From the NCBI RefSeq assembly GCF_018137965.1, contig NZ_CP073100.1, forward strand, positions 2,863,754 to 2,927,753: 64,000 bases of DNA. The letters are read 5' to 3'. Each line of letters opens with the position of its first letter. Positions within the stretch are counted from its first letter, which is position 1. The notes under the pieces were generated by a model, which was not told where the DNA came from, made no database searches, and was given only the letters and a program-made list of their open reading frames with translations. This document shows positions 21,032-54,587 of this stretch, piece after piece. The stretch comes from Luteolibacter ambystomatis (GTDB lineage Bacteria; Verrucomicrobiota; Verrucomicrobiia; Verrucomicrobiales; Akkermansiaceae). The translations under genes were made by a program, and so were the position numbers.

Positions 21032-21597
21032 GGTCCCGGAACCAGCCTGAAAAGGGCCGGGTGACATAACCGGGGCAGCTCCCCGGGAATCCATGCAAAT
21101 CCACTACGAGCCCCGGAGGGCGGAATGAAGAAGGGAACAGTTGCTCCCTGAACATTCCGTCCCTTCGGGGCTCGATCTTTTTCTCCGATGTCGCATGGCG
21201 CTCGTTGCATGGTGCCATCTCCCAATCCCCCCTCCGGGCTTGGATCGCCAAGAGGACTAGTAGAGGCCCGATCCATACGTCCTTCCTCCCACGGACACCC
21301 TCTTCATGACTCAAATTCTCGCTATTGCATGTAATTCAATGAGTTGCATGCATCATCAAAATCCACATTCACCTATCGAAAATACCCTAATCCTAACAGC
21401 CTCACGATGGCTGAAAACATCCGGATCTTTTTGATTTTCAGAGATTTTCCCTCCAATCGCTGAGTCGCAAAAACGGCCTTAAAAATCGCAATCCGATGAT
21501 TTGTGCGCAATTTCCGCCTTTACGCCGTAGTCCTGTCCACGCCAACCCCTACGTGTCGTCTTTGTGTCGATATTGTATTCCAGATTGCATTACCCCC
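21032..21597. other. Long intergenic region upstream of P2
   Basis: 566 bp without a credible gene. The first part holds the hairpin at 21107-21174. From about 21300 the DNA becomes AT-rich, with two TTGCATG motifs (near 21336 and 21353), and probably contains the promoter and a long leader of P2. A frame open from 21496 into P2 is not coding-like before 21598. Confidence 0.5.
21107..21182 (+). terminator. Palindromic repeat acting as a possible terminator
   Basis: Arms at 21107-21127 and 21153-21174 (CGAGCCCC ... GGGGCTCG) pair over 21-22 bp with one mismatch and one bulge around a 25-nt loop. They are followed by CTTTTTC on the plus strand. It lies 76 bp after the DUF3472 stop. The CGAGCCCCGGAGGG type of sequence recalls interspersed palindromic repeats in related phyla, so it may be both repeat and terminator. 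Confidence 0.55.
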
Positions 21598-24500: not shown

Positions 24501-27500
24501 CGCCGCCGCCCTGGGCACCCTTTCCCTGGGATCGAACACCCTCATCAAGAACGGTCCGGGCGATTTGATGCTCAACGGCGTGAACGTCACCAGCGGCAAC
24601 ATCACGGTGAATGCCGGTTCTCTCACCCTGATGCGCGGCTACACCACCGGTGCGGGAGAAGTGAACTTCGGCCAGCAGCCCACCACCTTGGCAGGCACCG
24701 GTACCCTCACGATCAACAGCGGCGCGACGGTCACCACCAACCGCTGGGGCGCCGCGCTGACGATCTCAATGCCGATCACCATGAACGGCGGCACCCTGGG
24801 CAGCACCTGGCCGGGACCGAATGGCGCCACCATTTCCAGCCCGATCAACCTGGCGGCCACCAGCTCCGTCAACTTCACCGGTGGCTATGGCGTCGGCACC
24901 CTGAGCGGTGTCATCTCCGGCCCCGGCACGCTCAATACAAACAGCGACACGGTCATCCTCACCGGTGCGAACACCTACACGGGTGGCACCACGATCAATG
25001 GCGGGGTGCTCGCCTTCAACAGCGGTTCGCTCGCCACCACCGGCGCGCTGACGATGAATGGCGGCACGCTGCGCTGGAACGGCACGCACGCCCAGGACAT
25101 CTCCAGCCGCGTGGTGATGGTGGCCGCCAAAGCCGCGGCCTTCGACACCAACGCCAACAACGTCACCTTCGCCTCTCCGCTGGGCACCGGCAATACCGCG
25201 GCCATCACCAAATACGGCGCGGGCACTCTAACCATCGCGCCGGTCAACAACTACACCGGCGGCACCAACGTTGAAGCGGGCGTGCTGAGTGTCTCCGCCA
25301 TCGCGGACGGTTCCGGCAGCAGCAGCATCGGCACCACCGGCGGCACCGCCAACTACGTGGGTGTCAACAACGGCTCGACGTTCCAATACACCGGCTCCAC
25401 CAACGCCACCACCACCCGCACCTTGTGGGTGGACCGCGGTGCGGGTGCCATCATCGACATCGCCCGCACCGGTGCGACGCTCACCTGGACTCCGGGTGGC
25501 GGCACCCGCAGCATGCCGCTGGTGAAGACCGGCACCGGCACCCTGCTGATGAACGGCGCCTTCACCGGCACCGCCACCGTGACGGTGAACGCCGGCACGC
25601 TGGGCTTGGGTGGAGCGAACACCTACACCGGTGCGACCACCGTGAACGCGGGCGGCACGCTGCTGCTGAATTCCACGCTCACCTCGGACATCAGCGTGGC
25701 CACCGGCGGCACGCTCGGCGGCGAAGGCACCTCCGCGAACGCGATCACGCTCAACGAAGGCTCCACGCTGCTGGCGAACTTTGCCACCCCCTCCGCCCAG
25801 CTCACCACCACCGGCGCGGTGACGGTGAACAAGACCACGGCGGGCGTCACCCTCCAGCTCCAGAACGCCCCGACCACCGCGGGCGTGCAGGCGGTGCCCT
25901 TCCTGAAGTACGGCACGCATAGTGGCGGCACGACGAACTTCAACACCGCCGCCTACCGCTCCGCCAGCATCACGGATGACACCACCAACAAGATCCTGAC
26001 GCTGAACTACACCTCCGATGCGAAGGTCTGGGCGGGCGTGGCCGGCAACACCACCTGGGACACCGGCACCTCCACCGACTGGACCGGCGCGGACACGAAG
26101 TTCTACAGCGGGGACAACGTCAGCTTCACCGAAACGGCCACCAGCAAGGCGGTGACCCTCACCGGCACGCTCAACCCGTCCCAGATGACGGTGAACAACA
26201 CCAGTGCCTACACCTTCAGCGGCTCCGGAACCATCACCGGCAACGGCTCGCTGACGAAGACGGGCACCGGCACGCTGAACCTGATCCAGACCAACGGCCA
26301 CGCCTACACCGGCGGCACCATCATCAGCGGCGGCATGATCGCCGTGGGCAACAATACGGTGAACAACCAGGCAGCCACCGCGCTGGGCACCGGCACCGTG
26401 ACCATCAACGCCGGTGGCAAGCTCGGCCTCTATCCGGGCAGCACCGGCAACGTCTACAACATCCCGAACAACCTCATCCTCAATGGTGGCACCATCCACC
26501 AGGAGGACGGCCACGAGCACTTCCTGGGCACCGTGTCCGTGACCGCGGACAGCATCGTGGAAGGCCGCTGGAATCCGAAGTCGGTCTGGTTCGATGGTGT
26601 GGTTTCCGGCACCAGCAAGATCACCGTGACCGATGGCGGCAACGGCGCCTGGGTTGCCTTCACCAATCCCTTCAACAGCTTCTCCGGAACGCTGGCGCTG
26701 GGCAGCAGCAACGTGAACGTGGTGGCGAAGGACAACACCACGCTCCAGTTCGCCACCGTGGACTCCGGTGCGACCACCGCGATCTTCCAGGTGGCGGCCA
26801 CCAATGCCGTGCCGAACGTGACCGTGGCCGGACTGAAGGGCACCGCGGCCGCCAAGGTGATCAACGCGGATGCCACCGCGCGCACGCTGACGGTGAACAA
26901 CACGGCGGACAACACCTTCGCCGGTTCCATCGGTGACGGTACCGCGAACGGCAACCTGCTCTCGCTGGTGAAATCCGGCAGCGCCTCCCTCACGCTGGGC
27001 GGTGCGAGCACCTACACCGGCGCCACCGCCGTCAATGCGGGCACGCTTATCGTGAATGCCGCGAATGCCTCCAGCGCCACCACCGTGGCCACGGGCGCCA
27101 CGCTCAAAGGCACCGGCACCCTTGCTGGCAGCCTGGCCGTGACAGGCACCGTGGCTCCGGGCAACAACGCCGTGGGCACACTCACCGCCGCCAGCGCCAC
27201 CATCTCCGGCACCTACGCCTGCGAGGTCAATGGCACGAATGCGGACAAGCTGGCCGTGACCGGCGCGCTGACGCTGAGCCCTGGTGCCACGCTCGCCATC
27301 ACCGCCACCAGCCCGACCGCGAACAGCTACGTGATCGCCACCTACACCGGCAGCGTTCCCGCCTTCACCACGACCACCGGCCTGCCGAGCGGCTTCTCCG
27401 TGGACTACAGCACCCCGGGCCAGATCCGTCTGGTGCAGTCCGGCTTCACCGGCTGGGTCAGTGGCTTCGGTCTCAGCGGCGGCGATGCCGCAGTGGGAGC

Positions 27501-27888
27501 GGACCCCGATCACGATGGCATCCCGAACGGCGTGGAATACGTGCTGGGTGGCAATCCCGCCACCGGCATGGATCAGGCCAAGATGCCGACGCTGGCTCTG
27601 GTCAACACCGATCCGGATGGCGCGGGTTCCGCTCCTGCGGGTGACTACGTCCTCTTCACCTTCCGCCGCACCTCGGCCTCCGCAGCCGCCGGAGTGGGCG
27701 CCGGGTGCGAGTTCGATGCCGACCTGACGGGCACCTGGACCACCGCCGTGGGAGCCTCCGGAGTGGTGCAGAACGTCACCCCGGACGGCTTCGGCACGGG
27801 CGTGGACAAGGTCGAGGTTTACGTCCCGAAAGCCACCTGGCAGGTCGCGGGCAAGCTCTTCGCCCGTCTGCGCGTGACGGTTCCCTGA
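21598..27888 (+). CDS. Giant secreted autotransporter-associated beta-strand repeat protein (P2)
   Basis: 2096 residues from the ATG at 21598, which begins a signal peptide (MKLNRLNGFLRRFVSLLTVP, to AAHGA). Most of the protein is PATR-type beta-strand repeat sequence (NTYTGTTTINAGTLVLGN, GANTYTGGTTINGGVLAF, GASTYTGATAVNAGTLIV). Two larger units repeat an ILFNYTG or FLKYGTH element, a YRSA-like element, a Trp motif (LTWNGTTDGQWDVG near residue 777; KVWAGVAGNTTWDTG near 1475) and a GDxVxFxD element before the next set of PATR repeats. There is no autotransporter barrel. The C-terminal module has GADPDHDGIPNGVEYVLGG, a beta-domain and the terminus KLFARLRVTVP, the same tail as P1. It is likely surface-exposed or released. 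Confidence 0.9.
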   Translation: MKLNRLNGFLRRFVSLLTVPAVVITFLGGAAHGANRYWDGGTVNIAANGDGASGGTAGNWDTTLTNWDQGSGLAHVAWNNASLDSAFFAGTAGTVTLTAPVTAGSLTFTTSGYTLAGTNALTLGGTTATITTSTLNTAGTTTISAPIAGALTGGLTIASNGDMSATGAGASGLGVRLSGTNTFTGDITVTSGLLSYTTDAALGNAANNIILNGGGLLDSSVNQTITRNITVGAAGGIFRTYGAAVATVNGILSGSGAFGRTDGGTVVFNGNNTFTGVFTSNSSCATIFAGSNPATTYNVNGGSIVVGNNGTSGSLASGSVMNLANGTSLFVRRIDAVTATGILPATINIAGATSKFEYNPNSATATMSFDQDFGTDATKGYFRVSGGTLSLASGTDIVVDTVSTGLQTASNVGRLELLSGSTITTRAFNLGETGSNSGVVTQYAGSTATILSGNLGFRLGHWTNGVNPGNVYNLLGGTLDATALAANAGNERFVNIGWDGQADMTVGGGASAALLKASGIQIDANGDTAFNDTLTLSTNGTAEVGALGINSGSVNDRLVLNGGTLRTTADATWSPAITANASTTSVFDTNNFTVTVPSNIGGTGTISLPTNSGSLILTTTGTQTVSAGFADTLTIRKQGAGTTVLSGTSTHTGALTVEAGRLDNTGTLGSTVTVNSGTSIGGEGVFNGDVYFNSGSKFMVDPVTSAAPTFHYVSLSGQPVVSFTSVPVQSQTPITLFNYTGGVIGSIFTDLFLPTLRNPVLTDTGTSVTLSFTNQNLTWNGTTDGQWDVGTSLRWNAGETDAFYTGDAVTFDDTGSNAAVTLAGEILPSSVTVNASTKAYAFGGTGYIGGTGGITKSGTASLTLGTPNTYTGTTTINAGTLVLGNPGALGSSAGATTIASGATLDAGGQDLTSASESITVGGSGVGGAGALVNTGATRCFLPKVTLSSDTTVNIASGKSLAIGQNAGNAAALGTLSLGSNTLIKNGPGDLMLNGVNVTSGNITVNAGSLTLMRGYTTGAGEVNFGQQPTTLAGTGTLTINSGATVTTNRWGAALTISMPITMNGGTLGSTWPGPNGATISSPINLAATSSVNFTGGYGVGTLSGVISGPGTLNTNSDTVILTGANTYTGGTTINGGVLAFNSGSLATTGALTMNGGTLRWNGTHAQDISSRVVMVAAKAAAFDTNANNVTFASPLGTGNTAAITKYGAGTLTIAPVNNYTGGTNVEAGVLSVSAIADGSGSSSIGTTGGTANYVGVNNGSTFQYTGSTNATTTRTLWVDRGAGAIIDIARTGATLTWTPGGGTRSMPLVKTGTGTLLMNGAFTGTATVTVNAGTLGLGGANTYTGATTVNAGGTLLLNSTLTSDISVATGGTLGGEGTSANAITLNEGSTLLANFATPSAQLTTTGAVTVNKTTAGVTLQLQNAPTTAGVQAVPFLKYGTHSGGTTNFNTAAYRSASITDDTTNKILTLNYTSDAKVWAGVAGNTTWDTGTSTDWTGADTKFYSGDNVSFTETATSKAVTLTGTLNPSQMTVNNTSAYTFSGSGTITGNGSLTKTGTGTLNLIQTNGHAYTGGTIISGGMIAVGNNTVNNQAATALGTGTVTINAGGKLGLYPGSTGNVYNIPNNLILNGGTIHQEDGHEHFLGTVSVTADSIVEGRWNPKSVWFDGVVSGTSKITVTDGGNGAWVAFTNPFNSFSGTLALGSSNVNVVAKDNTTLQFATVDSGATTAIFQVAATNAVPNVTVAGLKGTAAAKVINADATARTLTVNNTADNTFAGSIGDGTANGNLLSLVKSGSASLTLGGASTYTGATAVNAGTLIVNAANASSATTVATGATLKGTGTLAGSLAVTGTVAPGNNAVGTLTAASATISGTYACEVNGTNADKLAVTGALTLSPGATLAITATSPTANSYVIATYTGSVPAFTTTTGLPSGFSVDYSTPGQIRLVQSGFTGWVSGFGLSGGDAAVGADPDHDGIPNGVEYVLGGNPATGMDQAKMPTLALVNTDPDGAGSAPAGDYVLFTFRRTSASAAAGVGAGCEFDADLTGTWTTAVGASGVVQNVTPDGFGTGVDKVEVYVPKATWQVAGKLFARLRVTVP

Positions 27889-28750: not shown

Positions 28751-31700
28751 ATGAAATCCGTCCAAAAATGCGCAGCCGTGCCGCTGGCTCACGCCATGTC
28801 GGCTTCTAAAATCGATAGGATGAGATCCGGCTTCTCGCTGGTAATCACCCTGATGATGATGGTCCTGCTGGCGACCCTTGCCCTCGGCCTGTTGTCCCTG
28901 AGTTCCGTGACCCTGCGGAGCACCCAGGCCGGAACCAACATGGCCATCGCCCGCTCGAATGCCCGGCTGGCCCTCGCCATCGCCCTCGGGCAGCTCCAGC
29001 GAACCACCGGCCCCGACCAGCGGGTGACGGCACGGGCGGAGATTCTGGAAAAGACCGCCAAGCTCAACCCGGAGCGCCGCTTCATGACCGGCGTGTGGGG
29101 CAGCTCGAAGTGGGATCCCACCCGCCCGGATGACAAGACTTTCGTGGAGTGGCTGGTGTCCACCATCCCCGGCACCGAAGACCCGGCCGTCACCAGCTTC
29201 GCCGCCACGGCGCTGGGCGATGACAAGACCGTCGCAACAATCGTCGGCACCGGCTCGGTGGCGTCACCGGACGAACAGGTGAAGGCGCGCCTGGTGGACA
29301 TTCATGCGAACGGCAAGGTTTCCGGTCGCTACGCCTACGTCACCTTCGACAACAACGTGAAAGCGGATTTCGCGACCGGCGGCACGATCCCGGACGACAC
29401 GCTCGCCAAACTGAGCCGGCTGTCCGCCGCACCGCGCGCCGCTATCGACCTTTACGGGCTGGCCGAACTGAAGGACGCCGCCTCGAAATCCACCAAGACC
29501 CTCGTGACCTGGAACACCAGCGCGGCGGCCTTTCCCGGCAACAACGGCATCGTGCCACGCAGTACCTTCCATGATGGAACGGCGAACACACTCTCGCTCT
29601 TCACGGATGTGCGCAACGGCGGCATGCGCGCCGACCTGTCCTCCGCCTTCGAGCAGGAGATCGGCGATTTCAACGCCATCAATGAATTCCACAATTCCGG
29701 GGAAACCAACGACACGTCGTTCTACAGCACGGTGGGCACGGCCTACAACGCGCCGGAATTCTACAAGGGAGCGAAGCTGGGCTACCTCTACGAGATCCCG
29801 GTGGGTGGCAGCAACCGCCTGCGCGGCCCGACGTGGGACCTGCTGCGCAATCACTACCGCCTCTACAAGCGCGACCATGAGGCGCTCTCCTGGCCGCGCG
29901 CCATCACCGTGGGGACCGACACCTTCGCGGCACGCGGCGAGATGCCGATGAGCTACTCGTCCGGCCTCAACCAGACAAATGGCAACTACTCGTGGCGGGC
30001 CAGTCCCGGCGTCCTCTACTCGAAAGCCAGCAAGGGAACCTATCAGAGCATGAACCTGCTCGAGCAGCCCTACAACGCGGCCGCCTCGCTGACCGGCCCG
30101 ATCAACCGGCCGACGGCGGAACGCATCGCCCCCGTGGTGACACGCTTCACCCTCGCGCTGGGACTTGTGAAGCGCTACAACAGCGGCGTGGAGGAACTGG
30201 GGGTTTCGTTCGATCCCTACGTCACCGTTCTCAATCCCTACAACGTGCCGATCGCGTTCGACTCCTTCGGCATGTTCATCAGCAAGATGAATCCGGTGCG
30301 CCTGACGGTGAACTACACCGACGCGGACACCGGCACGCAGAAGGTGGCCAACGTGGTCCTTTCCGCCAACTACTACACCCAGGGATCGCTCTCGATGCGG
30401 ATGCCGGTGAAAAGCTCCCCCTATGTGCTCCAGGCCGGAGAGGTGAAGACCATCAGCCCCGAGCGCGTGGACAAGAGCGTGGTGGACCAGGTGATCAAGT
30501 ATTCCGGCATCACGCCGATCCACGGCACCTTCGACTACAACGAAGGCTCCGGCATCGTCGCCACCGGACAGACCCCGATCAAGGTGAAGACCGGAACCCA
30601 GGTCACGCTCGAGATCCGCGGCCGCACGTCCGGCGATACCGAGTTGGACCACATGATCTTCTCGCTCTACTACGGGAAGAACCACAGCGGCACCACCCGC
30701 AACCTGGATACCGATGTTCCGCCGACCAACAACATGTTCGCGGACACGGATATCTTCGACGATCCCTTCGTGACGAAGGTGAGCTTCGCCACCCATGACA
30801 ACAGCAGCATGGGCAGCCTCTTCGTCAGCCGCACCGTGAACTACTCGCAGGTGCCGAACGCGGGCCAGGTGGGCCTCTCCGTGGGCGCGCTGGACATCCG
30901 CATGAAGAACACCTCGGACGACGTGCCGGTGTTCACCGCCTTCAACCCGCGCTCCGCGGCGGTCGATCCCCGCGACTACAGCGGCGGCGACCGTGTCGGC
31001 CCGGGCTGGGATCTGAAACTCTCCCCGATCACGGACATCTCCCAGCTCCAGCTCGCCACCGATCCGGCGGGCCACGGGATGTGGGGTGGCGGTGTCGTCG
31101 CTCCGAACGGCGAGAGCAAGGTGGTGCTCTATGAAGTGCCGCGCGTGCCGATGACCTCGCCCGCGCAGTTCCAGCATGCGGATACCTCGGTCACTTCGTC
31201 CGGAGGTTCCCGCCACATCGGCAACTCTTTCCCGAACGCGGGCATTGCCTCCTCCACCGACATCCAGGGCCGCCGGGCGCTGGTGAACAACTTCGCCAAT
31301 GTGGGGCCGCAGAGTCTTGCGGACGCAAGCTGGGCGGGCAACGAGGCGATCTGGGACCGCTACTTCTTCAGCAGCCTGAACTACGGCACCGCTCCGCTCG
31401 CGGGCGGCATAGGCCCGCGCTACCGCTCGCTGGACGAGGCTGCGGAGGCGGTGGTGGATGCGAAGGACGGCAGGGACAGTCCGTTCTTCAATCCCGCGAT
31501 GAGGTATCTCGATTGGGACCACAGCTCGCGTGCCACCCGCATCGCCGAGGTCAAGGACTACTCGACCATCGCCATGCACCTGGCGATCCAAGGCGGATTC
31601 AACATCAACTCCACCTCGGTGCGCGCGTGGAAGGCGATGCTCGGTTCCCTGCGCAACCAGGACGTGCCAAGCGTCAGCGGCGGCGGCGTGTCCTATTCGA

Positions 31701-32407
31701 AGACCAGCCAACCGAGCGGTACCGGACGCTATGCGATGCCGGAAAGCCCGGACTCCGGTATCTGGAGCGGCTATCGTTCCCTGTCCGATGACGAGATCGA
31801 CAAGCTGGCCACGGCGATGGTCGCGCAGGTGAAAGCCCGCGGTCCCTTCATGGGTCTCGCCGACTTCGTGAACCGCCGCCTCACCAGCGGCTCGAAGAAC
31901 GGCTATGAAACCGGAGCCCTCGGCGCGATGCAGATGGCGATCGAGGAAGCCGGACTCAACGGCAGCGTGAAGGGCGGCAAGGACTCCACCTTCGGCAGCA
32001 TGGAGCACCGCACGATCAACGTGGGTTCCCGCTCGATGACGGTCTCCACCGCGACCGGCGCGCCGCAGTATCTGATGCAGGCGGACATCCTCAGCCAGAT
32101 CGGCGCGAAGATTACCGCACGCTCGGATACCTTCACCATCCGCACCCAAGGGCAGGCCGTGGACACGGAGGGTAATGTGGCGGCTTCCGCCTGGTGCGAG
32201 GCGATCGTCCAACGCACACCGGAGTGGACTGTGCCGACGACCGAGAAGCCCTACAAGCCGGCCACCAGCTATCCCTCGGCCTCGAACAACGGCAATCCCC
32301 TGCTCACCCGCTGGCAGCCGAATACCAACCTCCCCGCTGCCGACCAGAAATTCGGCCGCGTCTTCCAGATCGTTTCCTTCCGCTGGCTGAAGCAAAGCGA
32401 AGTCTGA
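28751..32407 (+). CDS. Verru_Chthon cassette protein A paralogue (A1), GspK-like pseudopilin candidate
   Basis: 1218 residues from the ATG at 28751. A TTG at 28685 and ATGs at 28796 and 28820 are in frame. The N-terminus carries a type IV prepilin signal, RSG (Gly27) then FSLVITLMMMVLLATLALGL. Position 5 of the mature helix is Ile, not the usual Glu. The long middle is a beta-rich extracytoplasmic region (FDPYVTVLNPYNVPIAFDSF). The C-terminal ~270 residues resemble GspK: FNINSTSVRAWKAMLGSLRN (near residue 950), ARGPFMGLADFVNRRL (near 1027), TARSDTFTIRTQGQ (near 1122), then AWCEAIVQRTPEW. Known family: Verru_Chthon cassette protein A. The pseudopilus role is inferred. It is followed after 44 bp by its partner gene E1. 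No B, C or D genes are adjacent. Confidence 0.88.
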   Translation: MKSVQKCAAVPLAHAMSASKIDRMRSGFSLVITLMMMVLLATLALGLLSLSSVTLRSTQAGTNMAIARSNARLALAIALGQLQRTTGPDQRVTARAEILEKTAKLNPERRFMTGVWGSSKWDPTRPDDKTFVEWLVSTIPGTEDPAVTSFAATALGDDKTVATIVGTGSVASPDEQVKARLVDIHANGKVSGRYAYVTFDNNVKADFATGGTIPDDTLAKLSRLSAAPRAAIDLYGLAELKDAASKSTKTLVTWNTSAAAFPGNNGIVPRSTFHDGTANTLSLFTDVRNGGMRADLSSAFEQEIGDFNAINEFHNSGETNDTSFYSTVGTAYNAPEFYKGAKLGYLYEIPVGGSNRLRGPTWDLLRNHYRLYKRDHEALSWPRAITVGTDTFAARGEMPMSYSSGLNQTNGNYSWRASPGVLYSKASKGTYQSMNLLEQPYNAAASLTGPINRPTAERIAPVVTRFTLALGLVKRYNSGVEELGVSFDPYVTVLNPYNVPIAFDSFGMFISKMNPVRLTVNYTDADTGTQKVANVVLSANYYTQGSLSMRMPVKSSPYVLQAGEVKTISPERVDKSVVDQVIKYSGITPIHGTFDYNEGSGIVATGQTPIKVKTGTQVTLEIRGRTSGDTELDHMIFSLYYGKNHSGTTRNLDTDVPPTNNMFADTDIFDDPFVTKVSFATHDNSSMGSLFVSRTVNYSQVPNAGQVGLSVGALDIRMKNTSDDVPVFTAFNPRSAAVDPRDYSGGDRVGPGWDLKLSPITDISQLQLATDPAGHGMWGGGVVAPNGESKVVLYEVPRVPMTSPAQFQHADTSVTSSGGSRHIGNSFPNAGIASSTDIQGRRALVNNFANVGPQSLADASWAGNEAIWDRYFFSSLNYGTAPLAGGIGPRYRSLDEAAEAVVDAKDGRDSPFFNPAMRYLDWDHSSRATRIAEVKDYSTIAMHLAIQGGFNINSTSVRAWKAMLGSLRNQDVPSVSGGGVSYSKTSQPSGTGRYAMPESPDSGIWSGYRSLSDDEIDKLATAMVAQVKARGPFMGLADFVNRRLTSGSKNGYETGALGAMQMAIEEAGLNGSVKGGKDSTFGSMEHRTINVGSRSMTVSTATGAPQYLMQADILSQIGAKITARSDTFTIRTQGQAVDTEGNVAASAWCEAIVQRTPEWTVPTTEKPYKPATSYPSASNNGNPLLTRWQPNTNLPAADQKFGRVFQIVSFRWLKQSEV

Positions 32408-32451: not shown

Positions 32452-33183
32452 ATGTTCCGTCCTCTCATCCCCGGCCTCATCGCCGCGCTCTGCCCTCTCC
32501 TTCTCCACGCCCAGGACGCGCCCGCCGCAGGCTCGCCTGCGACCGAGGAAGCGAAAACCAAGGGCCTGAAGTTCCAGGTCTCCGCGTGGGGCGACTGGAG
32601 CGGCGCACCGTTGTTCGCGCAGGTCGAAGCGAAAAAATACACCCAGCTCAAGATCGCAGACATGGCCTTGACCGAGGCCATGCCCTTCAAGCGCGAAGAA
32701 GGCATCACGCTGTATGAAAAGGTGGAGGCGAAGGACGGGAAGGAAGAGGGCTACAAGCCGAAGTTCCACGTCACGGTACCTGCTGACATCAAGACACCGC
32801 TGGTGTTGCTGCTACCGGGCAAGGACAAGCAGATGATCCCGCGGGTCTATGAGCTCGATCCTTCGGGATATCCGGCCGGTGCGTATCGCTTCGTCAACCT
32901 CAGCCCGATCCCGGTGCTGGCCACGGTGAACGAAACCCGCACCACCGTGCCGCCGAACGGCGACAAGATCGTGAACCGCTCGCCAAAGGCGGATGAACGC
33001 GTGCAGATCACCGGCACGGTGATGGGCCAGGACGGAGTGCCGCAGAAACTGTTCTCGACCATGGCCATCAACCGCACGACCAAGCGCATGATGATGTTCT
33101 TCTATCCCGCCACCACCACAGCGGACAGCGCCACGCTGATGTGCCGCAGTCTGGTGGACTTCGTGGAACCGGCGAAGCCCTGA
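32452..33183 (+). CDS. Small exported partner of protein A (E1)
   Basis: 243 residues from the ATG at 32452, which starts a signal peptide (MFRPLIPGLIAALCPLLLHA). The frame is open upstream inside A1, but only this start is plausible. The mature protein is beta-rich: FHVTVPADIKTPLVLLLPGK, GAYRFVNLSPIPVLATVNET, and TMAINRTTKRMMMFFYPATT. It resembles the gene after A2 (51371-52030) in the same order: a pressure-like LLLP/LVLAP strand, a FVNLS/FINRS element with VLA, and then W/I-x-N-x3-R before an aromatic strand. It follows A1 by 44 bp and is almost certainly co-transcribed. The function is unknown; it is periplasmic by signal peptide. Confidence 0.8.
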   Translation: MFRPLIPGLIAALCPLLLHAQDAPAAGSPATEEAKTKGLKFQVSAWGDWSGAPLFAQVEAKKYTQLKIADMALTEAMPFKREEGITLYEKVEAKDGKEEGYKPKFHVTVPADIKTPLVLLLPGKDKQMIPRVYELDPSGYPAGAYRFVNLSPIPVLATVNETRTTVPPNGDKIVNRSPKADERVQITGTVMGQDGVPQKLFSTMAINRTTKRMMMFFYPATTTADSATLMCRSLVDFVEPAKP

Positions 33184-47827: not shown

Positions 47828-50800
47828 ATGAAAACCCACAATCTGAAACCCCTGTCCATGGGGCTGGCAGTTCCGTATCCACGCGGCTTCTCACTCATCA
47901 TCACGTTGATGATGATGGTGCTGCTGGCCACGCTCGCGTTGGGCCTGCTGGGGCTTTCGACCATCAGCCTGCGCTCGTCCACCCAGGGCCAGGCCCAGCA
48001 GATGGCGAGGGCCAATGCGCGGCTGGCGCTGATGCTGGCTCTCAACGATCTCCAGAAGCAACTCGGCCCGGACACCCGCATCAGTGCTCCCGCCGATCAG
48101 ATTTCCGCGAGCTCGCCGGATCAATCGACAGTGCCGGTGTCACAGCGGAACTGGGTGCGCGTTTTCAAGGCATGGCCCGCCGGGAAGCCCGGCGACCCGA
48201 GGCCTGCGCCGGAATTCCAGCAATGGCTCGTATCCGGCGCGCCGGAACAGATTGTGAATCCCAAGCTGGTCGACGCGCCCCTCGGCGGGGGCTCGCTGGA
48301 GATCGTCACCACCAACAGCGTGGGTGCCACCGGCCAACCGGTGAGGGTTCCGGTCATCGCCCGCAAGGACGATGGCTCCGCGCTCGCCGGAGACCGCTTC
48401 GCGTGGTGGGTCAGTGATCTCGGCACCAAGGCCCAGATCGCGCCGACGGCAAAGACCCCCACGGCCATCGCCGAAGTGCGTGCCGACCAACAAGCCGCTC
48501 CCGGATACGCACTGAAGCCGGTGGGCACGAATACCAAGCCCTTCGCCGCCGTCGATCCCCAGGCTCCGACACTCGGCCGTCTGCCCACATGGCAAAGCTG
48601 TGCGCTGCTGGCGGACAAGCCGGAGAACGTCCGCGGGTTCTTCCATGACTTCACCACCTGCAACCGCGGGCTGCTCACGAACGTGCGCGCCGGTGGATTC
48701 CGCAAGGACCTCTCGATGGAACTCGAGCGTCCCGCCGGTAGCGGCCCCGATCCCGCAGCCACGGCGCTCTATCAGGTGGGCGGCGAGACCGGCATCAACC
48801 TGCAGGAGCTCTGGACCTACTACAACCTCTACAAGAACCTGAAGCGCGGCGGATCGTTCACCTACACCACCGGCGGCACGATGCCCTCCGGGTCCCCCTA
48901 TCTCCAGATCGGAGCCACACCGACGGAGTGCGCCAATGACGAAACCTTCTACCTGAAGCAGCCGGTCATCACCAGCTACCAGATGGCGCTGTCGTTCCGC
49001 ACGATGCCGGTGACTTCCGGCGGCGCAACGGTGAACCGGCTCCATCTCTACGCCGATCCCATCATCACGATCTGGAATCCACTGGACGTGCCGGTGGTGC
49101 TGCCTTCCGGGAATTACCTGACGGTGAAGTACTGGCAGATCCCCTACGACATGGTGATCCGGAAAGCCGGCGGCGCCACCCTCACCTGCCCGCTGGCCGC
49201 CTGTCTCTCCGGTGCCACCAGCACCTCGGACGGCGATTCGAATTTCCTGAGCATGCGCATGGGCAAGCTCCAGCAGATCGTCCTCAAACCCGGCGAGGTG
49301 ATCAAGATGTCCCAGGTCGGCCCGGCCATTTCCAAAGCCTCCGTCGGCGGCAGCGGCCACCAGCTCGATGCGAACAAGGGCTTCAACTACGGCGGTGGTG
49401 TCTACATGCCGGTGCGCGACCGTGCCGGCCAAACCATCGACCTGGCGGTCAACGACACCATCTCCTACGAACTGAAATCGAACGAATTTACGGCCGGTGC
49501 CACCAAGTCGAGCGGCCACACCATCAGTTCGACCGGCGTCTCCCACACCCGCCATTTCTCGCTGACGCATCACGAGGTCTATGTCGGCGAGGACCGCGGC
49601 CCCTCCAGCGAGAGCCTCGGCTATGGCAACATGAGCGTGGATTGGGACTTCGGCGACAAGCGCGTGAAGCCCGCCGAAAACCGCGGCACCTCCGAACCCG
49701 GAGTGCCCGGCACCAAGAAGCCCGCCGACCGGCTCTACGCGAACGATTCCAAGCTCAAGGATGTCTTCCGTTCCATCAATGGCTCCGACACGCGCGACCT
49801 GCCCGCCTCCGCGCTCGCCGCCTCGAAACAGCCGTTCGCGCTCTTCTCCTTCAGCGCCAAAACCGAGAAAAGCGGCGCGCGTGGCACCCGCAGCCTCGCC
49901 CGCTTCAACCCGAAGGCGCTGCACGTGGACTTCTACGACCTCACTGCCCAGGAGCGGGACCTGCTGCCCTATGAATACAGCGTGGAACCGCTGCTAAGCT
50001 GGAAGAACAACAAACTGGAGGTCAGCCCCAGCGGCAACGCCTACTTCGGCGGTGGTGAGGATGCGACCAACGGTTGCAGCACCGTCATCACCCACTCGAT
50101 CCCACGCGAATCGGTCATTTCACTGGCGGCCTTCCAGCACTCGTTCGCCAACGGCTTCGACACCCAGAAGGCGAAGCATGGCTATGCCACCCTCAACGCC
50201 CGGGAGCCGATGCTGCCCCAGATCGCACACGCGATCGGCAACTCGACGGCCTGCCCGGTGCTGCCCGCCGCCAAGGCCGAGGGTACCCTCTCCGGCAACC
50301 GCCCGCTGGCGGACCACTCCTACCTGGCCAACCAGGCGCTATGGGACGAGTGGTTCTGCTCCGGCATCACCCCGCAGACCTCCGACACCTACGGCAGACC
50401 TCGTAGCCAGCTCACGGTCGCGCAGGAATTCTTCACCAATACCACGAAGCTGCCGGTGGCCGCCTACAAGGCCGAGCTGCGCGGCAAGGAAGCCTCCAAG
50501 CTTGCCGGTACCTACATCCCGGGCGCCACCCCCTCCCCGAACGCGACCAAGGAAATCGCCAGCCTGATCCGGGTGGACGGAATGTTCAATGTGAACTCCA
50601 CTTCCGTGGAAGCATGGAAGAGCCTGCTCGGAGCGCTGCGCGGACGTCCGGTGCTGGTCGCGGACATCCATGGCAAGGAAACGGTGAAGTCCGAGAACGA
50701 CACCACGCCCGTGGCCGGCCTGCGCTCGCCACAGGACCTGCTCGCAAAGAACCTCGGGGATGCCTCCTCGCCGGAGCAATGGTCCGGCCGCCGCACGCTC

Positions 50801-51346
50801 ACGGATGACGAGATTTCCGCGCTCGCGCGGGACATCGTGATCGAAGTCCGTAAGCGCGGGCCGTTCCTGTCGCTCGCCGATTTCGTGAACCGGCGCGTGG
50901 GCAATGATGACAATCTCGCCCGCTGCGGAGCGATCCAGGCAGCGCTGGAATCCGAAGGAAACCCGGTGAACGCCGAATTCCGAAAGAGCCGCTCGGTGAA
51001 TGGCGATGTCAGCGGCCGCTTCGTCTTCCCGAAGGCGGAGGACGGGCCGATCTCCACCGGTTGCCCGGGTGTGGTGAGCCAGGCGGACATTCTCACACCG
51101 ATCGCGCCGGTGCTTTCCGCCCGCTCGGATTCGTTCGTGGTCCGCGCCTACGGCGACCGCACCGATGCCGACGGCAAGGTGATCGCCCGCGCATGGTGCG
51201 AAGCGGTCGTCCAGCGCTCGCCGGAATTCATCGATCCCACTGACACGGTGGAAAAGGACTACGCTGCCATCACCCCGCTCAACCGCAAGTTCGGCCGCCG
51301 CTTTGAAGTGGTGTCCTTCCGCTGGATCGATCCCCGCGAGGCCTGA
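47828..51346 (+). CDS. Verru_Chthon cassette protein A (A2), GspK-like pseudopilin candidate
   Basis: 1172 residues. The prepilin signal is PYPRG (Gly20), then FSLIITLMMMVLLATLALGL. Mature position 5 is Ile instead of Glu, as in A1 and as in GspK minor pseudopilins. A large middle region (LYADPIITIWNPLDVPVVLP; MPVRDRAGQTIDLAV) is predicted to be extracytoplasmic. The C-terminus has the GspK-like order: FNVNSTSVEAWKSLLGALRG (near 920), RKRGPFLSLADFVNRR (1008 onward), SARSDSFVVRAYGDRT (near 1098), then ARAWCEAVVQRSPEF and the terminal FGRRFEVVSFRWIDP. These blocks are shared with A1. It is followed after 24 bp by E2 and is convergent with D-B-C. Family membership is firm; the pseudopilus-tip role is inferred. 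Confidence 0.9.
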   Translation: MKTHNLKPLSMGLAVPYPRGFSLIITLMMMVLLATLALGLLGLSTISLRSSTQGQAQQMARANARLALMLALNDLQKQLGPDTRISAPADQISASSPDQSTVPVSQRNWVRVFKAWPAGKPGDPRPAPEFQQWLVSGAPEQIVNPKLVDAPLGGGSLEIVTTNSVGATGQPVRVPVIARKDDGSALAGDRFAWWVSDLGTKAQIAPTAKTPTAIAEVRADQQAAPGYALKPVGTNTKPFAAVDPQAPTLGRLPTWQSCALLADKPENVRGFFHDFTTCNRGLLTNVRAGGFRKDLSMELERPAGSGPDPAATALYQVGGETGINLQELWTYYNLYKNLKRGGSFTYTTGGTMPSGSPYLQIGATPTECANDETFYLKQPVITSYQMALSFRTMPVTSGGATVNRLHLYADPIITIWNPLDVPVVLPSGNYLTVKYWQIPYDMVIRKAGGATLTCPLAACLSGATSTSDGDSNFLSMRMGKLQQIVLKPGEVIKMSQVGPAISKASVGGSGHQLDANKGFNYGGGVYMPVRDRAGQTIDLAVNDTISYELKSNEFTAGATKSSGHTISSTGVSHTRHFSLTHHEVYVGEDRGPSSESLGYGNMSVDWDFGDKRVKPAENRGTSEPGVPGTKKPADRLYANDSKLKDVFRSINGSDTRDLPASALAASKQPFALFSFSAKTEKSGARGTRSLARFNPKALHVDFYDLTAQERDLLPYEYSVEPLLSWKNNKLEVSPSGNAYFGGGEDATNGCSTVITHSIPRESVISLAAFQHSFANGFDTQKAKHGYATLNAREPMLPQIAHAIGNSTACPVLPAAKAEGTLSGNRPLADHSYLANQALWDEWFCSGITPQTSDTYGRPRSQLTVAQEFFTNTTKLPVAAYKAELRGKEASKLAGTYIPGATPSPNATKEIASLIRVDGMFNVNSTSVEAWKSLLGALRGRPVLVADIHGKETVKSENDTTPVAGLRSPQDLLAKNLGDASSPEQWSGRRTLTDDEISALARDIVIEVRKRGPFLSLADFVNRRVGNDDNLARCGAIQAALESEGNPVNAEFRKSRSVNGDVSGRFVFPKAEDGPISTGCPGVVSQADILTPIAPVLSARSDSFVVRAYGDRTDADGKVIARAWCEAVVQRSPEFIDPTDTVEKDYAAITPLNRKFGRRFEVVSFRWIDPREA

Positions 51347-51370
51347 ACCACCACCGCCTTTCCACCCGAC

Positions 51371-52030
51371 ATGACCAGACGACTTTTCGGATTCGGCTTC
51401 CTGCTGCTTCTCCAACCGCTCACCGCCCAAACCAAGCCGGAGGAGGGGCCGCAGGTTCGGTTCCTCGCGGAACGCGTGCCGGACAACCTCGGCGAAGTGG
51501 TGATCCAGAACGGGGACAACAAATCCGCCCCCTTCAAACTGCCCGTCAACCAGCTCTCGCCGCCCATCGCCGCCGCGGCACGCACCTTCGTATTGAAGTC
51601 GGGAGACAAGGGCCAACCCCTCTGCCCGGTGACCCTGCCGGAAACGGGCAAGTCCTTCGCGGTGATCCTGGTACTCGCTCCGCCTGCCGCGTATGCGCCG
51701 ATCGTGGTCCGCACCGATGATCCGGAGTTCAAGGCGGGCGACGTGTTCTTCATCAACCGCTCCACGCAAACGGTGCTGGCGAAGCTGGGTGACACCAAGC
51801 TGGCGCTGAAAGCGGGCGAATCGAAAAAGAGCCACCCGACCAACCCGGTGAACAACACCTACTACGACATCGCCTTCGCCACACAGGAGGGCGAGAAAAC
51901 CAAGATGATCAGCACCACCCGCTGGCCGATCGACAATCTGCTCCGCAGCTACGTGTTCTTCTTCACCACGGCGGAAGGCGCCACCAGTTTCCGTGCGGTG
52001 GACGAATACATGACGCCACCACCGCAGTAG
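51371..52030 (+). CDS. Small exported partner of protein A (E2)
   Basis: 219 residues with a signal peptide (MTRRLFGFGFLLLLQPLTAQ). It is mostly beta-strand: FAVILVLAPPAAYAPIVVRT, AGDVFFINRSTQTVLAKLGD, STTRWPIDNLLRSYVFFFTT. The order and character of these blocks match E1 after A1, although identity is low. It lies 24 bp after A2 and ends 25 bp before the shared bidirectional terminator. It may be a periplasmic subunit or chaperone of the pilin-like complex. No known family is recognised. Confidence 0.8.
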   Translation: MTRRLFGFGFLLLLQPLTAQTKPEEGPQVRFLAERVPDNLGEVVIQNGDNKSAPFKLPVNQLSPPIAAAARTFVLKSGDKGQPLCPVTLPETGKSFAVILVLAPPAAYAPIVVRTDDPEFKAGDVFFINRSTQTVLAKLGDTKLALKAGESKKSHPTNPVNNTYYDIAFATQEGEKTKMISTTRWPIDNLLRSYVFFFTTAEGATSFRAVDEYMTPPPQ

Positions 52031-52054
52031 CCTCTTCTTTTATCACGGCAAAGG

Positions 52055-52085
52055 AAAAGCCCGGCACATGGCGTGCCGGGCTTTT
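52055..52085. terminator. Perfect bidirectional terminator between A2-E2 and D-B-C
   Basis: AAAAGCCCGGCAC (52055-52067) pairs perfectly with GTGCCGGGCTTTT (52073-52085) around a 5-nt loop. T-runs lie on both sides (TTTTCTT on plus; TTTTCCTTT on minus). It serves the convergent operons ending at 52030 and 52114. Confidence 0.92.
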
Positions 52086-52113
52086 CTTGTGGGAGCTTTC
52101 CGGAAGGAATGGC

Positions 52114-53097
52114 TTACATCGAGGTCACTTCCACCAGCTTGGAGAACTGGTAGGAGTTCTTCGCGATGAACTGGGCCTTTTCCTTGTCATCCTTGAAGGT
52201 ACGCACGCGCAGCTGGTTCGTGCCGACGTCGGTCAGGACGGTGAGCGAAATATCCACCGAGACGATGCGACCAGCTTTCATTTCATCGACAGTGACCAGG
52301 CTGGTCTTGAAATCGGTGTTGTTCGAATCCAGAACCTTCAGGGTATTGCCGAAGATCTGCACCGATTGGGCGGTGGTAACCGTGGTGCCGCTGGCACCAC
52401 CTCCGCCGCCGGAACTGGACGGGCCGCGGGTCAGGGTGACGGGCACGATCTGCTTGGTGGGCGGAGTGTTCGGCGAGGTCGAGGCCTTCTGGACCTCCAC
52501 GTTGAACTTGAGCGTGAACTGGTAAACGTTCTCGCAGACGAAGTTCTTCACATCGGACACCGTGCGGGTGCCAAAAGCGGTCTGCAGGTCGGTCTGGCCG
52601 AGGAGCGAGTTGAAGGTTTCGTTCGGTTCCACCAGCAGGCGGTACATCGCGAAGGTGTCGTAGCTGGTGGAGGCCTGGCCGGAGACCGGATCCTTGTAGT
52701 CCAGCTTGTACGAGATGCAGGAGACGTCGCCACCCTGGTCGGTGACGTTCGAATAGCGGTCGGTGGGGGCGGAGAAGAAGATCAAGCTGGCGGCATTGTT
52801 GCTCTTCACCTTGGCATTGCCCGGCAGGTCGCTGTCCTTGCTAAGATCGGCGTAGAGCCACTCGAAGCTGTTGCCCTTGCGGGTCACCATCGCCTGGAAG
52901 TCGGCGGCCATCGAGTCGGTCATCGCCTTGCCCTGGCGGCTGGCGCGGATCTCGGAGCGGGACTTCTGCCAAGCCTCGATGGACACGGAGGTGATGCTCA
53001 CCAGAACGGTGACGATGATCGTGGTGATGGCCATGGCCACCATCAGCTCCATGAGGGTGAAGCCCCGGCGGATGGAATCGCGGAAATGGGTTTTCAT
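52114..53097 (-). CDS. Verru_Chthon cassette protein C, GspJ-like
   Basis: 327 residues. The prepilin peptidase motif is RRG (Gly12), then FTLMELMVAMAITTIIVTVL, with Glu at mature position 5. The following helix (WQKSRSEIRASRQGKAMTDS, then MAADFQAMVTRKGNSFEWLY) resembles GspJ-type pseudopilins and matches Verru_Chthon protein C. A Gly/Ser-rich loop (SSGGGGGASG) lies near residue 225. Last gene of the D-B-C operon, 22 bp after B. It is predicted to be an inner-membrane pilin processed by prepilin peptidase. Confidence 0.88.
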   Translation of the reverse strand: MKTHFRDSIRRGFTLMELMVAMAITTIIVTVLVSITSVSIEAWQKSRSEIRASRQGKAMTDSMAADFQAMVTRKGNSFEWLYADLSKDSDLPGNAKVKSNNAASLIFFSAPTDRYSNVTDQGGDVSCISYKLDYKDPVSGQASTSYDTFAMYRLLVEPNETFNSLLGQTDLQTAFGTRTVSDVKNFVCENVYQFTLKFNVEVQKASTSPNTPPTKQIVPVTLTRGPSSSGGGGGASGTTVTTAQSVQIFGNTLKVLDSNNTDFKTSLVTVDEMKAGRIVSVDISLTVLTDVGTNQLRVRTFKDDKEKAQFIAKNSYQFSKLVEVTSM

Positions 53098-53119
53098 GAT
53101 CGGAAGCGATTGCGCCGTC

Positions 53120-53881
53120 TCAGCGGCGGGCAGCCAGGTTGCGGGTGAAGATCGGGGTTTGCAGGGCGGAGTTGGTGAATCCGGCGCCTGTGATGTACTG
53201 GTAGGCAGTACTAGGCACGCCGTAGAAATCGGCGGAGAAGGCGATCACGGCCTCGGTGTACTGCGTGGCGTCGGTGGCCGGATTGTTGGGCGGCTTGGGA
53301 TCCTTGATCTGGCCGGATTCACCGAGCTCGAGGCCGTTGGTCTTGAAAACGAGCTGGGTGGCGCAGACCGCGAAGACGCGGCCTTCGAGTGACTTCAGGT
53401 CTTCCTTGAGGTATTCGTCGTTCTTCGGATTGTTCGAATCCTTGCGGCGACGCACGGCGGACTGGATGACGTAGTCGGAACCGGCGATGCCCGAACCGGC
53501 GTTGGTGTAGGCGGCGAGGGAGCCGTCATCCCGCATCTTGGTCGGATCGGCGCGGTACTGGTAGATCAGGATTGTGCCATCGGAGGGCTTGTTGCCGTCC
53601 TTCTTGGCGTTCTTGATCCAATCGAAAGCCTTGTCGAAGGCCGTGCCGACGGTCTGGCCGCCACCGCCGGTGAACTTCTCGTTCGGGCGCAGCGTGCCGA
53701 GTTCCTTTTCCAGCGTGGAGGCCAGACGGTCCGCTTCCTGGGCGCTGAGCGCGCGGCGGATGCCGGAAGTGGCAGGCCCGAAGACGGTGAGGAAGGCGGA
53801 GAGAAGCACGGCAAGGACGCCGATGGCGATCACGGTCTCCATCAGGGTGAAACCGCGCCGTTGGGATGTGGTGGTCGTCAT
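53120..53881 (-). CDS. Verru_Chthon cassette protein B, GspI-like
   Basis: 253 residues. The motif is RRG (Gly10), then FTLMETVIAIGVLAVLLSAF, with Glu at mature position 5. It is followed by a helix with ALSAQEADRLASTLEKELGT. The remainder is a globular domain with ILIYQYRADPTKMRDDGSLA and QYTEAVIAFSADFYGVPSTA. It matches Verru_Chthon protein B and is GspI-like in position and N-terminal character. Middle gene of the operon, 4 bp after D. Confidence 0.87.
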   Translation of the reverse strand: MTTTTSQRRGFTLMETVIAIGVLAVLLSAFLTVFGPATSGIRRALSAQEADRLASTLEKELGTLRPNEKFTGGGGQTVGTAFDKAFDWIKNAKKDGNKPSDGTILIYQYRADPTKMRDDGSLAAYTNAGSGIAGSDYVIQSAVRRRKDSNNPKNDEYLKEDLKSLEGRVFAVCATQLVFKTNGLELGESGQIKDPKPPNNPATDATQYTEAVIAFSADFYGVPSTAYQYITGAGFTNSALQTPIFTRNLAARR

Positions 53882-53885
53882 GGGC

Positions 53886-54587
53886 TTAGAAGGTGGTCAC
53901 GGTGGCAGGAATGCCGGCCTGATCCGGGGAGCGGAAGAGCGAGGTATTGCCATTCCGCCACACGATGAAGCCGCCGAACTCGCGCTTCGCGCTGCCGACG
54001 GTGCGGGGTTCGCCGGCGCTGCCGGTGCGGACACCGGAACCGACCACGAAGGTCGCGCCGGGAGTGGTGCAGATGCCTTCCGAATTGAAGATATAGGCGT
54101 AATATTTGCCTTCGTACTGCTTCTTCACGTTGTCCCCGCTGAGGGAGATTTCCGTGAGGGTCTGGCCGTCGCTGCCTCCCTTGCTATAGGTCTTGCTGAA
54201 AAAGACACCGTCCGGAAGGGTCGCCCCGCGGCTGGTGAGCACCCACTTGTCCTTCACCGGCTGGTTGGTGGCGGGATCGAGGTCCTCATAGGCGATGAGC
54301 ACGCGCTTCAGATAGTTCGTGGCGTCCTTGGGATCATTGATGTCCACCAGCACGCAGGCGCGGGTGGCCTTGCCGGTGGCGGTGGACCGGGCTTCCGCAA
54401 ACAGGGCCTCCGCGGTCGTAACCCCGCTGTTGAGGTTCTTGCCCTTGGTGATGCCACCCATGCCAACGGCACCCACCGTGAGCAGAATGGCGATGATCCC
54501 GATGACCACCAGCAATTCAATCAGTGAGAAACCCGCAGGGGGACGATGTGGAGGATGTCCTCCGGTGGATCTAAAACGGCTGTTCAT
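53886..54587 (-). CDS. Verru_Chthon cassette protein D, GspH-like
   Basis: 233 residues. The motif is PAG (Gly19), then FSLIELLVVIGIIAILLTVG, with Glu at mature position 5. The next segment, TAEALFAEARSTATGKATRA, resembles the GspH/FimT helix. The C-terminal domain is beta-rich with YAYIFNSEGICTTPGATFVV. It matches Verru_Chthon protein D. First gene of the minus-strand operon. The 91-bp gap upstream should hold its promoter and the end of galE transcription. Confidence 0.88.
   Translation of the reverse strand: MNSRFRSTGGHPPHRPPAGFSLIELLVVIGIIAILLTVGAVGMGGITKGKNLNSGVTTAEALFAEARSTATGKATRACVLVDINDPKDATNYLKRVLIAYEDLDPATNQPVKDKWVLTSRGATLPDGVFFSKTYSKGGSDGQTLTEISLSGDNVKKQYEGKYYAYIFNSEGICTTPGATFVVGSGVRTGSAGEPRTVGSAKREFGGFIVWRNGNTSLFRSPDQAGIPATVTTF

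Follow-up and report, generated by a model that had tools for sequence, protein, structure and literature searches.

Giant Proteins Resembling the Minor Pseudopilin GspK Form a Multicopy Unit with a Small Partner Protein in Luteolibacter ambystomatis

The window analyzed here, a 64,000-nucleotide stretch of Luteolibacter ambystomatis DNA, carries a gene pair, A and S, that is present in 10 intact copies in the genome and in which A travels with S as a multicopy unit, as well as a trio of minor pseudopilin genes, D-B-C, that is separate from this pair and usually located away from A (Table 1). Protein A looks like a K-type minor pseudopilin (i.e., one in the GspK/PilX position) with about 880 extra residues and a fast-changing center, as judged from its predicted structure. 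We consider it fairly probable that a single H-I-J base is shared by many alternative giant K caps, the machine probably being a pilus of the Akkermansia type. The textbook type II secretion system has one K cap, the size and role of which are debated, and ten giant caps alongside a single base set would allow the cap's job to be tested by swapping caps. This reading also points to candidate components for the tip of the Akkermansia pilus, a pilus for which our search of the openly licensed literature found no described minor-pilin set.

Table 1. Features of the A-S Pair, the D-B-C Trio, and the Second A-S Pair in the Window
Feature	Description	Position	Strand	Remarks
A	giant K-type minor pseudopilin (predicted), 1172 aa	47828..51346	+	ORF, AlphaFold2 model, GspK fold matches, no Glu5
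A residues 21-79	pilin N-terminal helix (22-79 in model), portion matched by NCBIfam GspK	47888..48064	+	
A residues 111-904	insert separating the two K-like ends; residues 376-730 most variable	48158..50539	+	
A residues 905-1172	conserved C-terminal portion containing the FNVNSTS, RGPF-ADFVNRR, RSDxF, and AWCEAVVQR blocks	50540..51343	+	
S	small A partner, 219 aa, hydrophobic signal-like N-terminus, all-beta	51371..52030	+	directly 3′ of A
C	Glu5-bearing minor pseudopilin in J position of trio	52114..53097	-	
B	Glu5-bearing minor pseudopilin in I position of trio	53120..53881	-	
D	Glu5-bearing minor pseudopilin in H position of trio	53886..54587	-	
A2	second giant K-type protein (predicted) in window, 29% identical to A	28796..32407	+	
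S2	partner gene directly 3′ of A2	32452..33183	+	

Predicted Fold and Sequence of Protein A

An earlier note on this DNA gave the coordinates and reading frames of A, C, B, and D correctly, and proposed that A is a greatly enlarged GspK-like protein. A looks like an enlarged K-type pseudopilin because its AlphaFold2 model, obtained with no templates (pLDDT 87.7, pTM 0.89), has two GspK structures as its best matches by a wide margin. Specifically, when the full-length model was compared using VIA-align, which here re-aligned Foldseek's own list only (996 chains), 222 of the 259 residues of XcpX (5vtm_X) were aligned with a Z of 12.0 and an rmsd of 3.1, and 239 of the 280 residues of ETEC GspK (3ci0_K) with a Z of 11.4 and an rmsd of 3.0, while the third-ranked structure reached a Z of 4.5, some 7 Z units behind both. 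Foldseek by itself ranked GspK ninth (E 0.22, probability 0.13), which is not significant. We consider the GspK cap fold of A, as modeled, to be well supported, and the model suggests that this fold is interrupted by a large insert, in line with the proposed enlargement.

The likeness to GspK that had also been read from the C-terminal sequence is, in contrast to the structural one, not borne out by profile comparisons: HMM-HMM alignment of the A C-terminus with GspK gave 4% (A3), or 8% with deeper slices, neither of which is significant, and a PDB profile search with the same region returned chance matches only. PF03934 and PF21687 gave no match to A up to E 10, and the GspK equivalog NF037980 scored 24.2 bits against a cutoff of 130. 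The individual C-terminal motif blocks that had been pointed out were nevertheless all located (FNVNSTS-AW-LL, RGPFLSLADFVNRR, ARSDSFVVR, and ARAWCEAVVQR), and their key positions vary little or not at all both among the genome's 10 A proteins and in a set of 67 A proteins, and thus the blocks are not due to chance. The N-terminus likewise reads as had been described, with a class III prepilin leader spanning residues 1–20, cleavage at RG/F, a mature start at Phe21, and Ile at +5 where D, B, and C have Glu. This Glu5 is present in 0/67 A proteins, and likewise in 0/25 canonical GspK proteins, and is found in all relatives of D (19/19), B (20/20), and C (21/21).

The A-S Pair and the D-B-C Trio

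S, an exported protein encoded directly 3′ of A, was overlooked in the earlier note. It lies directly downstream of A in 10/10 cases in this genome, and in 28/46 and 76/83 cases among other A genes, all of them genes for which 1 kb of sequence was available. The sequence identities of A and S are correlated (r 0.94 over 60 pairs, the largest value among 500 permutations being 0.17), and the divergence of S tracks that of the A insert (partial r 0.67) more than that of the A C-terminal core (0.33). Behind 16 A genes of an inferred Akkermansia group (g2), no S was detected at the threshold used, and a wider search in this group gave weak results, with two matches in one locus (L125; E 5e-5 and 0.0014) and all others at 0.3 or worse. 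The model of S (pLDDT 92.3) is that of a small two-domain beta-sandwich protein, whose nearest structural matches are the extracellular domain of PepT1/PepT2 and single domains of the Ig/TTR-like type, with residues 117–217 best matched by HGSNAT, domain 4 of cholesterol-dependent cytolysins, AlgF, and others. As this fold is a common beta-sandwich, we read no function from these matches, and we also rejected membership of S in a known family, since none of 78 S members matched a Pfam family above the cutoff.

Beyond this genome, A was found in 61 of 240 genomes sampled across the phylum. In g2, the A C-terminus is present in 19/20 genomes, the cap locus holds an inverted pair of near-identical A copies, only one GspE pair was found (6 genomes tested), and canonical GspK was matched in none of the 20 listed genomes. 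Among the listed members of the family outside g2, most also carry a canonical H-I-J-K set (at least 9 genomes with GspK).

The earlier note had further taken A and D-B-C together as a complete H-I-J-K cassette, which the gene arrangement does not support. In the window, A-S lies on the plus strand and D-B-C on the minus strand in a convergent arrangement, and therefore the two do not form one operon; across 20 neighborhoods, D-B-C adjoins A in 2, and the order D-B-C itself is kept in 19. In addition, C has one match in this genome and is present in 137/145 genomes of the family, those of g2 among them. The real pair is A-S, with D-B-C standing apart as an H-I-J-like trio. The more specific equation of D-B-C with GspH-GspI-GspJ fares best for D, which we favor as H-type on sequence grounds because a GspH model matches 18/19 of its relatives. 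It is weaker for C and B, for which the HMM-HMM alignments are confined to the N-terminal helix (70 N-terminal columns for C against GspJ and 63 for B against GspI), with B matching GspJ as well as GspI. PDB profile searches with C and B returned pilin N-termini only, plus one chance match of B to VP4.

Filament Machinery and Competing Readings of A

A canonical H-I-J-K set is encoded away from the window locus in this same genome, and thus the trio and A in the window constitute a second set. The canonical locus (L065) reads G-H-I-J-K-L-M-D, and includes a T2SSK_1st domain over the cutoff, a T2SSM_b domain just below it, and a secretin. The genome also has a GspE-E-F-G operon (T2SSE, T2SSF, T2SSG), four secretins, and proteins scoring over the family cutoffs for Amuc_1098 (1199 bits), Amuc_1101 (907), and Amuc_1100 (355). 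One frame matches Peptidase_A24 over the Pfam cutoff (49.4 bits), although NCBIfam assigned no family to the predicted gene at this frame. The assembly ATPases and peptidase frame for which the earlier note suggested looking are thus present alongside the fold match of A; the system itself, which it had thought unrecognized, is probably not so, given the Amuc_1098/1100/1101-type pilus locus and the GspE-E-F-G operon. We note that a PF03934 match at 3150863-3151009 was rejected as GspK, being a helix-hairpin-helix stretch within a 797-aa frame, which presumably encodes a Tex-type RNA-binding protein.

Taking these components together, D, B, and C would make up the ring at the top of a pseudopilus or pilus, which one of several A proteins would cap at a time, with the variable A insert extending past the filament tip and S folding, escorting, or riding on this insert. 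The machine would be of the Akkermansia type, comprising the Amuc_1098 secretin, Amuc_1100, the PilM-like Amuc_1101, and GspE-E-F-G, and exchange of A would alter what the tip binds or lets through, leaving the rest of the machine unchanged. H-I-J-K sets of different filaments are described as interchangeable, with K capping the tip (PMC9934059, PMC7248040). We counted in favor of this reading the GspK-like fold and missing Glu5 of A, its conserved K-like ends and variable center, the coupling of S to A, the presence of ten intact A genes against one C match in the genome, the Amuc-family matches and the E-E-F-G operon, the fact that g2 keeps A and has C and one GspE pair while canonical GspK is unmatched in its 20 listed genomes, and an A-S pair located ~0.9 kb downstream of E-E-F-G both in this genome and in a close relative (G489). 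Against it we counted the 2/20 neighborhoods in which the trio adjoins A, together with the 1/20 in which A adjoins E-E-F-G, as well as the Foldseek rank of GspK, the low sequence scores of A against GspK, and the sparse S matches in g2; a tie between A and the GspE-E-F-G operon as a rule was rejected, being seen in this genome and, among 20 other stretches, in G489 only. In genomes of the family that hold a canonical H-I-J-K set, A might act on that set instead.

The variable center of A could also be read differently, namely as part of a type IV pilus tip adhesin, in which A is a modular minor pilin that attaches to a surface or glycan through its insert and S, with capping being secondary. 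The pattern of conservation would fit this, as the majority fraction is 0.59 and 0.54 in the K-like ends and 0.28 in the center (residues 376–730), as would weak Ig/FN3-like matches in the insert at about residues 386–665 (Z 4.5 or less, VIA-align) and the precedent of minor pilins onto which lectin or vWA modules have been grafted (PMC9934059). However, the insert sits inside the GspK fold rather than at the C-terminal end, and Pfam gives no lectin or enzyme family in A, making this reading unlikely in our view.

The canonical locus raises a further alternative, in which the A proteins are alternative K subunits capping the canonical type II pseudopilus and tuning the secretion of different cargo, with D-B-C belonging elsewhere. 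The H-I-J-K set, domains, and secretin at that locus speak for this, and 9/20 true Verru_Chthon stretches have a giant PATR (autotransporter-repeat) gene close to A, which fits a link between cap and cargo. Outside true cassettes, however, PATR genes near A are uncommon: 2/8 sources in this genome, 0/6 elsewhere in the family, 0/10 in the inferred Akkermansia group, 2/23 in other classes, and 3/37 at named loci (those longer than 18 kb, 37 of 79), and we rejected pairing of caps with PATR giants as a general rule. The genome is itself full of PATR proteins (150 PATR stretches scored of 460 candidates). As the listed g2 genomes keep A in 19/20 cases with no match to canonical GspK, we regard this alternative as quite improbable. 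Finally, that A is a pilin-like membrane anchor only, its remaining GspK likeness being an accident of modeling or alignment, would agree with the Foldseek E-value and the lack of a significant C-terminal sequence match, but it is very hard to reconcile with GspK structures from two species ranking first and second by a clear margin, and being covered over most of their length, in a template-free model, and with the missing Glu5 in all 67 A proteins.

Returning to the reading of one base with alternative caps, an extension that we put forward tentatively, as possible rather than probable, is that the Akkermansiaceae combine one H-I-J base with a swappable library of giant K caps, each with a dedicated Ig-like partner, as a tool-head for a pilus or secretion filament, and that the inverted pair in g2 might be switched through inversion of the DNA or by gene conversion.

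Comparison with Known Filament Tips and Verru_Chthon Cassettes

Like GspK/XcpX, A has a prepilin leader, no Glu5, a long N-terminal helix, and, by VIA-align, a fold common to both; unlike them, it is about four times longer, with roughly 880 residues unmatched, occurs in ten copies per genome, and has its own partner, S. PilB and PilC of Streptococcus sanguinis are modular minor pilins, PilA being a small companion that stabilizes PilC (PMC9934059). Like A, which would also sit at the filament tip, these minor pilins carry a sizeable additional module, and there is a small companion; their module is C-terminal, however, whereas the extra sequence of A lies within the K-type fold, and S does not belong to the pilins. 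In Myxococcus xanthus, three PilY1/minor-pilin clusters serve one machine, and the authors speculate that the resulting tips differ in their properties (PMC7541494). The similarity lies in one machine with several alternative tip sets; however, each M. xanthus cluster is a full set (FimU, PilV, PilW, PilX, PilY1), whereas here only cap and partner are multiplied. The proteins of the Akkermansia muciniphila Amuc_1098-1102 pilus locus have been studied for host effects (PMC5332112), and the genome analyzed here has members of the Amuc_1098, Amuc_1100, and Amuc_1101 families over the cutoff. A, S, and D-B-C lie outside its own Amuc-type locus (L066), and it is their link to the Amuc-type pilus that we infer.

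The label "Verru_Chthon" given to the four proteins in the earlier note is weak, as all score below the NCBIfam cutoffs (7.7 bits against 332.3 for A with TIGR02600, 29.9 against 256.5 for C with TIGR02599, 27.3 against 70 for D with TIGR02596, and 12.1 against 51.4 for B with TIGR02598), with every match confined to an N-terminal stretch. Our literature search found no paper containing "Verru_Chthon", and the finding on A may explain what at least part of this uncharacterized cassette is. TIGR02599 matches 21/21 relatives of C, and TIGR02596 matches 19/19 relatives of D. By HMM-HMM alignment, C and D are homologous to their counterparts in true cassettes well past the N-terminus (98.3% over 202 columns and 99.0% over 157 columns, respectively), B matches over the N-terminus only, and A shares its N-terminal 73 columns with cassette A (95.9%), the two C-termini giving 2%. 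In several true cassettes (for example, L158, L159, L161, L163, L168, and L170), A-B-C-D stand in a row on one strand, whereas at the locus studied here A forms a pair with S, and the D-B-C trio is separate and convergent.

Fold and leader of the giant A protein

An AlphaFold2 model of A, the 1172-residue candidate K-type minor pseudopilin, was obtained with a 67-sequence alignment and reached a pLDDT of 87.7 and a pTM of 0.89. When this model was compared by VIA-align, which re-examines Foldseek's list only, the top match was XcpX of Pseudomonas, at Z 12.0 and rmsd 3.1 over 222 of 259 residues (model residues 57-1169). The runner-up was GspK of enterotoxigenic E. coli, at Z 11.4 and rmsd 3.0 over 239 of 280 residues (model residues 49-1172), and the third row had Z 4.5 (996 chains aligned). 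The GspK fold that the earlier note had proposed for A, and that was sought here by structure prediction, is thus found in the predicted model, far above the other rows. Foldseek by itself ranked GspK ninth (E 0.22), a low position that may be expected because of the large insert in A. Considering the spans aligned, each end of A thus contributes part of the GspK fold in the predicted model, and the roughly 880 residues between them have no counterpart.

HMM-HMM comparison supports homology of the A N-terminus to GspK (45% over 102 columns) and to the A proteins of true Verru_Chthon cassettes (95.9% over 73 columns), whose proteins A-D have the family models TIGR02600, TIGR02598, TIGR02599 and TIGR02596; for the C-terminus, homology to either is not supported (2-8%). 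The K-like ends are conserved among relatives (majority fractions of 0.59 and 0.54), the centre is variable (0.28 at residues 376-730), and the length between residues 205 and 905 ranges from 611 to 818 residues.

The earlier note had located A and the trio D, B and C correctly, and its reading of mature position 5 (Ile in A, behind the leader RG|FSLIITL, and Glu in the trio) holds, as does its choice of C-terminal motifs in A, which are invariant or nearly so among relatives. Glu5 occurs in 19/19 D, 20/20 B and 21/21 C relatives, and in none of 67 A relatives, 25 canonical GspK or 19 true Verru_Chthon A proteins. None of the four proteins scores above an NCBIfam cut-off. The best model for A is GspK NF037980, at 24.2 bits against a cut-off of 130 and over residues 19-84 only; at E 0.01 or better it matches 9/10 A proteins of the own genome, and TIGR02600 matches 8/10. 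TIGR02599 matches all 21 C relatives, TIGR02596 all 19 D relatives (18 of which match the GspH model), and TIGR02598 six of 20 B relatives.

Many A genes and one D-B-C trio

The own genome, a single contig of 5.32 Mb that holds the window, carries ten intact A genes and one truncated, and a single match to C. The A C-terminus was found in 61/240 genomes and 28/129 genera of the phylum, many genomes having at least 10 matches each; the named relatives of A belong to records of Luteolibacter, Haloferula, Roseibacillus, Rubritalea and further Akkermansiaceae or Verrucomicrobiaceae. C was found in 137/145 genomes of the family; between 1 and 4 stretches per genome matched, and some of these are pieces of a single gene. 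The order D-B-C is kept in 19/20 fetched neighbourhoods, and in at least six of these, as in the window, the gene that follows has a VTGGAGYIGSHTVR-type start like that of UDP-glucose epimerase and is presumably galE. A adjoins trio genes in two of the 20: in genome G489 the two are convergent as in the window, and in G405 A, its small exported partner S and C form one run on the same strand without D and B, the C of this run being a second C homolog. The G405 run may be a remnant of the Verru_Chthon cassette or a re-formed version of it.

In true cassettes, A, B, C and D are consecutive on one strand in several fetched stretches (L177 left out), often with a giant gene upstream. TIGR02600 is above cut-off in 60/94 genomes of the order, none of these in Akkermansiaceae. 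Window D and C are homologous to their cassette namesakes (99.0% over 157 columns and 98.3% over 202 columns, respectively), and B at its N-terminus only (96.3% over 61 columns). From this distribution, the family appears to have split the cassette into one D-B-C trio and many A genes.

We note that A is present as a head-to-head pair of copies in stretches of the inferred Akkermansia group (L119, L120, L122, L124, L126). Inverted repeats that are 1.8 to 3.1 kb long and 95.7-100% identical cover the 3' parts of the two copies. A scan found no prepilin leader on the second copy in L120, L122, L124 and L126. Such an arrangement might act as a switch, by DNA inversion or gene conversion.

Coordinates of features in the window and in fetched stretches (L numbers)
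Feature	Stretch	Positions
Giant autotransporter-repeat (PATR) proteins	window	1331-7387 and 21496-27888
Inverted A repeat pair	L124	6697-8485 and 14203-12415
Inverted A repeat pair	L126	6377-9468 and 13771-10680
Inverted A repeat pair	L122	6587-9551 and 13731-10767
A-S-C run of G405	L324	9193-14282
A-S pair behind GspE-E-F-G	L046	4635-15578
Further filament-type cluster	L056	3453-15660
Cas9-, Cas1- and Cas2-like frames next to a PilT-like gene pair	L058	9333-13874
Frame with A-like start and S-like end	L053	7888-8664

Filament machinery

A search of the own genome for an assembly ATPase and a prepilin peptidase, which the earlier note had called for, found a GspE pair, within a GspE-E-F-G operon, and a Peptidase_A24 frame, for which the gene as called has no NCBIfam family. 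A canonical H-I-J-K-L-M-secretin locus and an Amuc_1098/1100/1101-type pilus locus, the latter over cut-off, are also present. E was found in 26/26 genomes queried, and the E-E-F-G operon in 20/20 stretches around E from other genomes. In L046 an A-S pair lies behind GspE-E-F-G with a basic 235-aa frame between, a layout repeated in the close relative G489 (L332).

Six genomes of the inferred Akkermansia group carry only the E pair of E-E-F-G at E 1e-60, and in this group canonical GspK had no match in 20/20 listed genomes (46 further genomes without a match lie beyond those listed) in a single-protein search that a divergent GspK could escape. A is present in 19/20 genomes, and C is present in the group too. 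These results make A the leading candidate for the K subunit in this group.

The A-S pair and a possible tip complex

The unit at the locus is A-S. S lies behind every intact A of the own genome (10/10), behind 76/83 A genes of the named set and behind 28/46 of the phylum set, where only A genes followed by 1 kb or more of sequence were counted (9/148 matches were left out for lack of room). The 18 exceptions in the phylum set comprise 16 in the inferred Akkermansia group, where a weak S-like gene follows some copies (E 5e-5 at best and 0.3 or worse in most cases), plus L109 and L133; 5/136 S frames are not behind an A. Divergence of A and S is correlated (r 0.94, 60 pairs; maximum 0.17 among 500 permutations), and S keeps pace with the A insert (partial 0.67) to a greater degree than with the C-terminal core (0.33). 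Linked genes have a common history, and the correlation therefore reflects co-inheritance, not contact. The S model (pLDDT 92.3) consists of beta-sandwich domains; in structure comparison it comes closest to the extracellular domain of PepT2, at Z 13.0, and its second half resembles many Ig/transthyretin-like domains.

According to PMC9934059 and PMC7248040, filament assembly is initiated by a quasi-helical tip complex of H, I, J and K, which K caps, and HIJK sets can be swapped between filaments. By analogy, D, B and C would form the base of such a complex, any A protein could occupy the K place on it, and the A insert would then protrude from the filament tip, with S perhaps made for the insert as a chaperone or tip passenger. 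M. xanthus sets a precedent, with several tip sets serving one machine (PMC7541494), although whole tip sets are multiplied there.

Among the neighbouring genes, one giant PATR gene lies directly upstream of A2, the second giant of the window, on the same strand; the own genome has at least 150 PATR repeat stretches among 460 candidates. The L056 cluster encodes three small prepilins, of the GMTLLE or GFTLLE type, along with an ATPase, a secretin and a GspF-like protein. The PilT-like genes of L058 are adjoined by Cas9-, Cas1- and Cas2-like frames, names that we presume from their N-termini. The 258-aa frame of L053 looks like what a deletion has left of an A-S pair.
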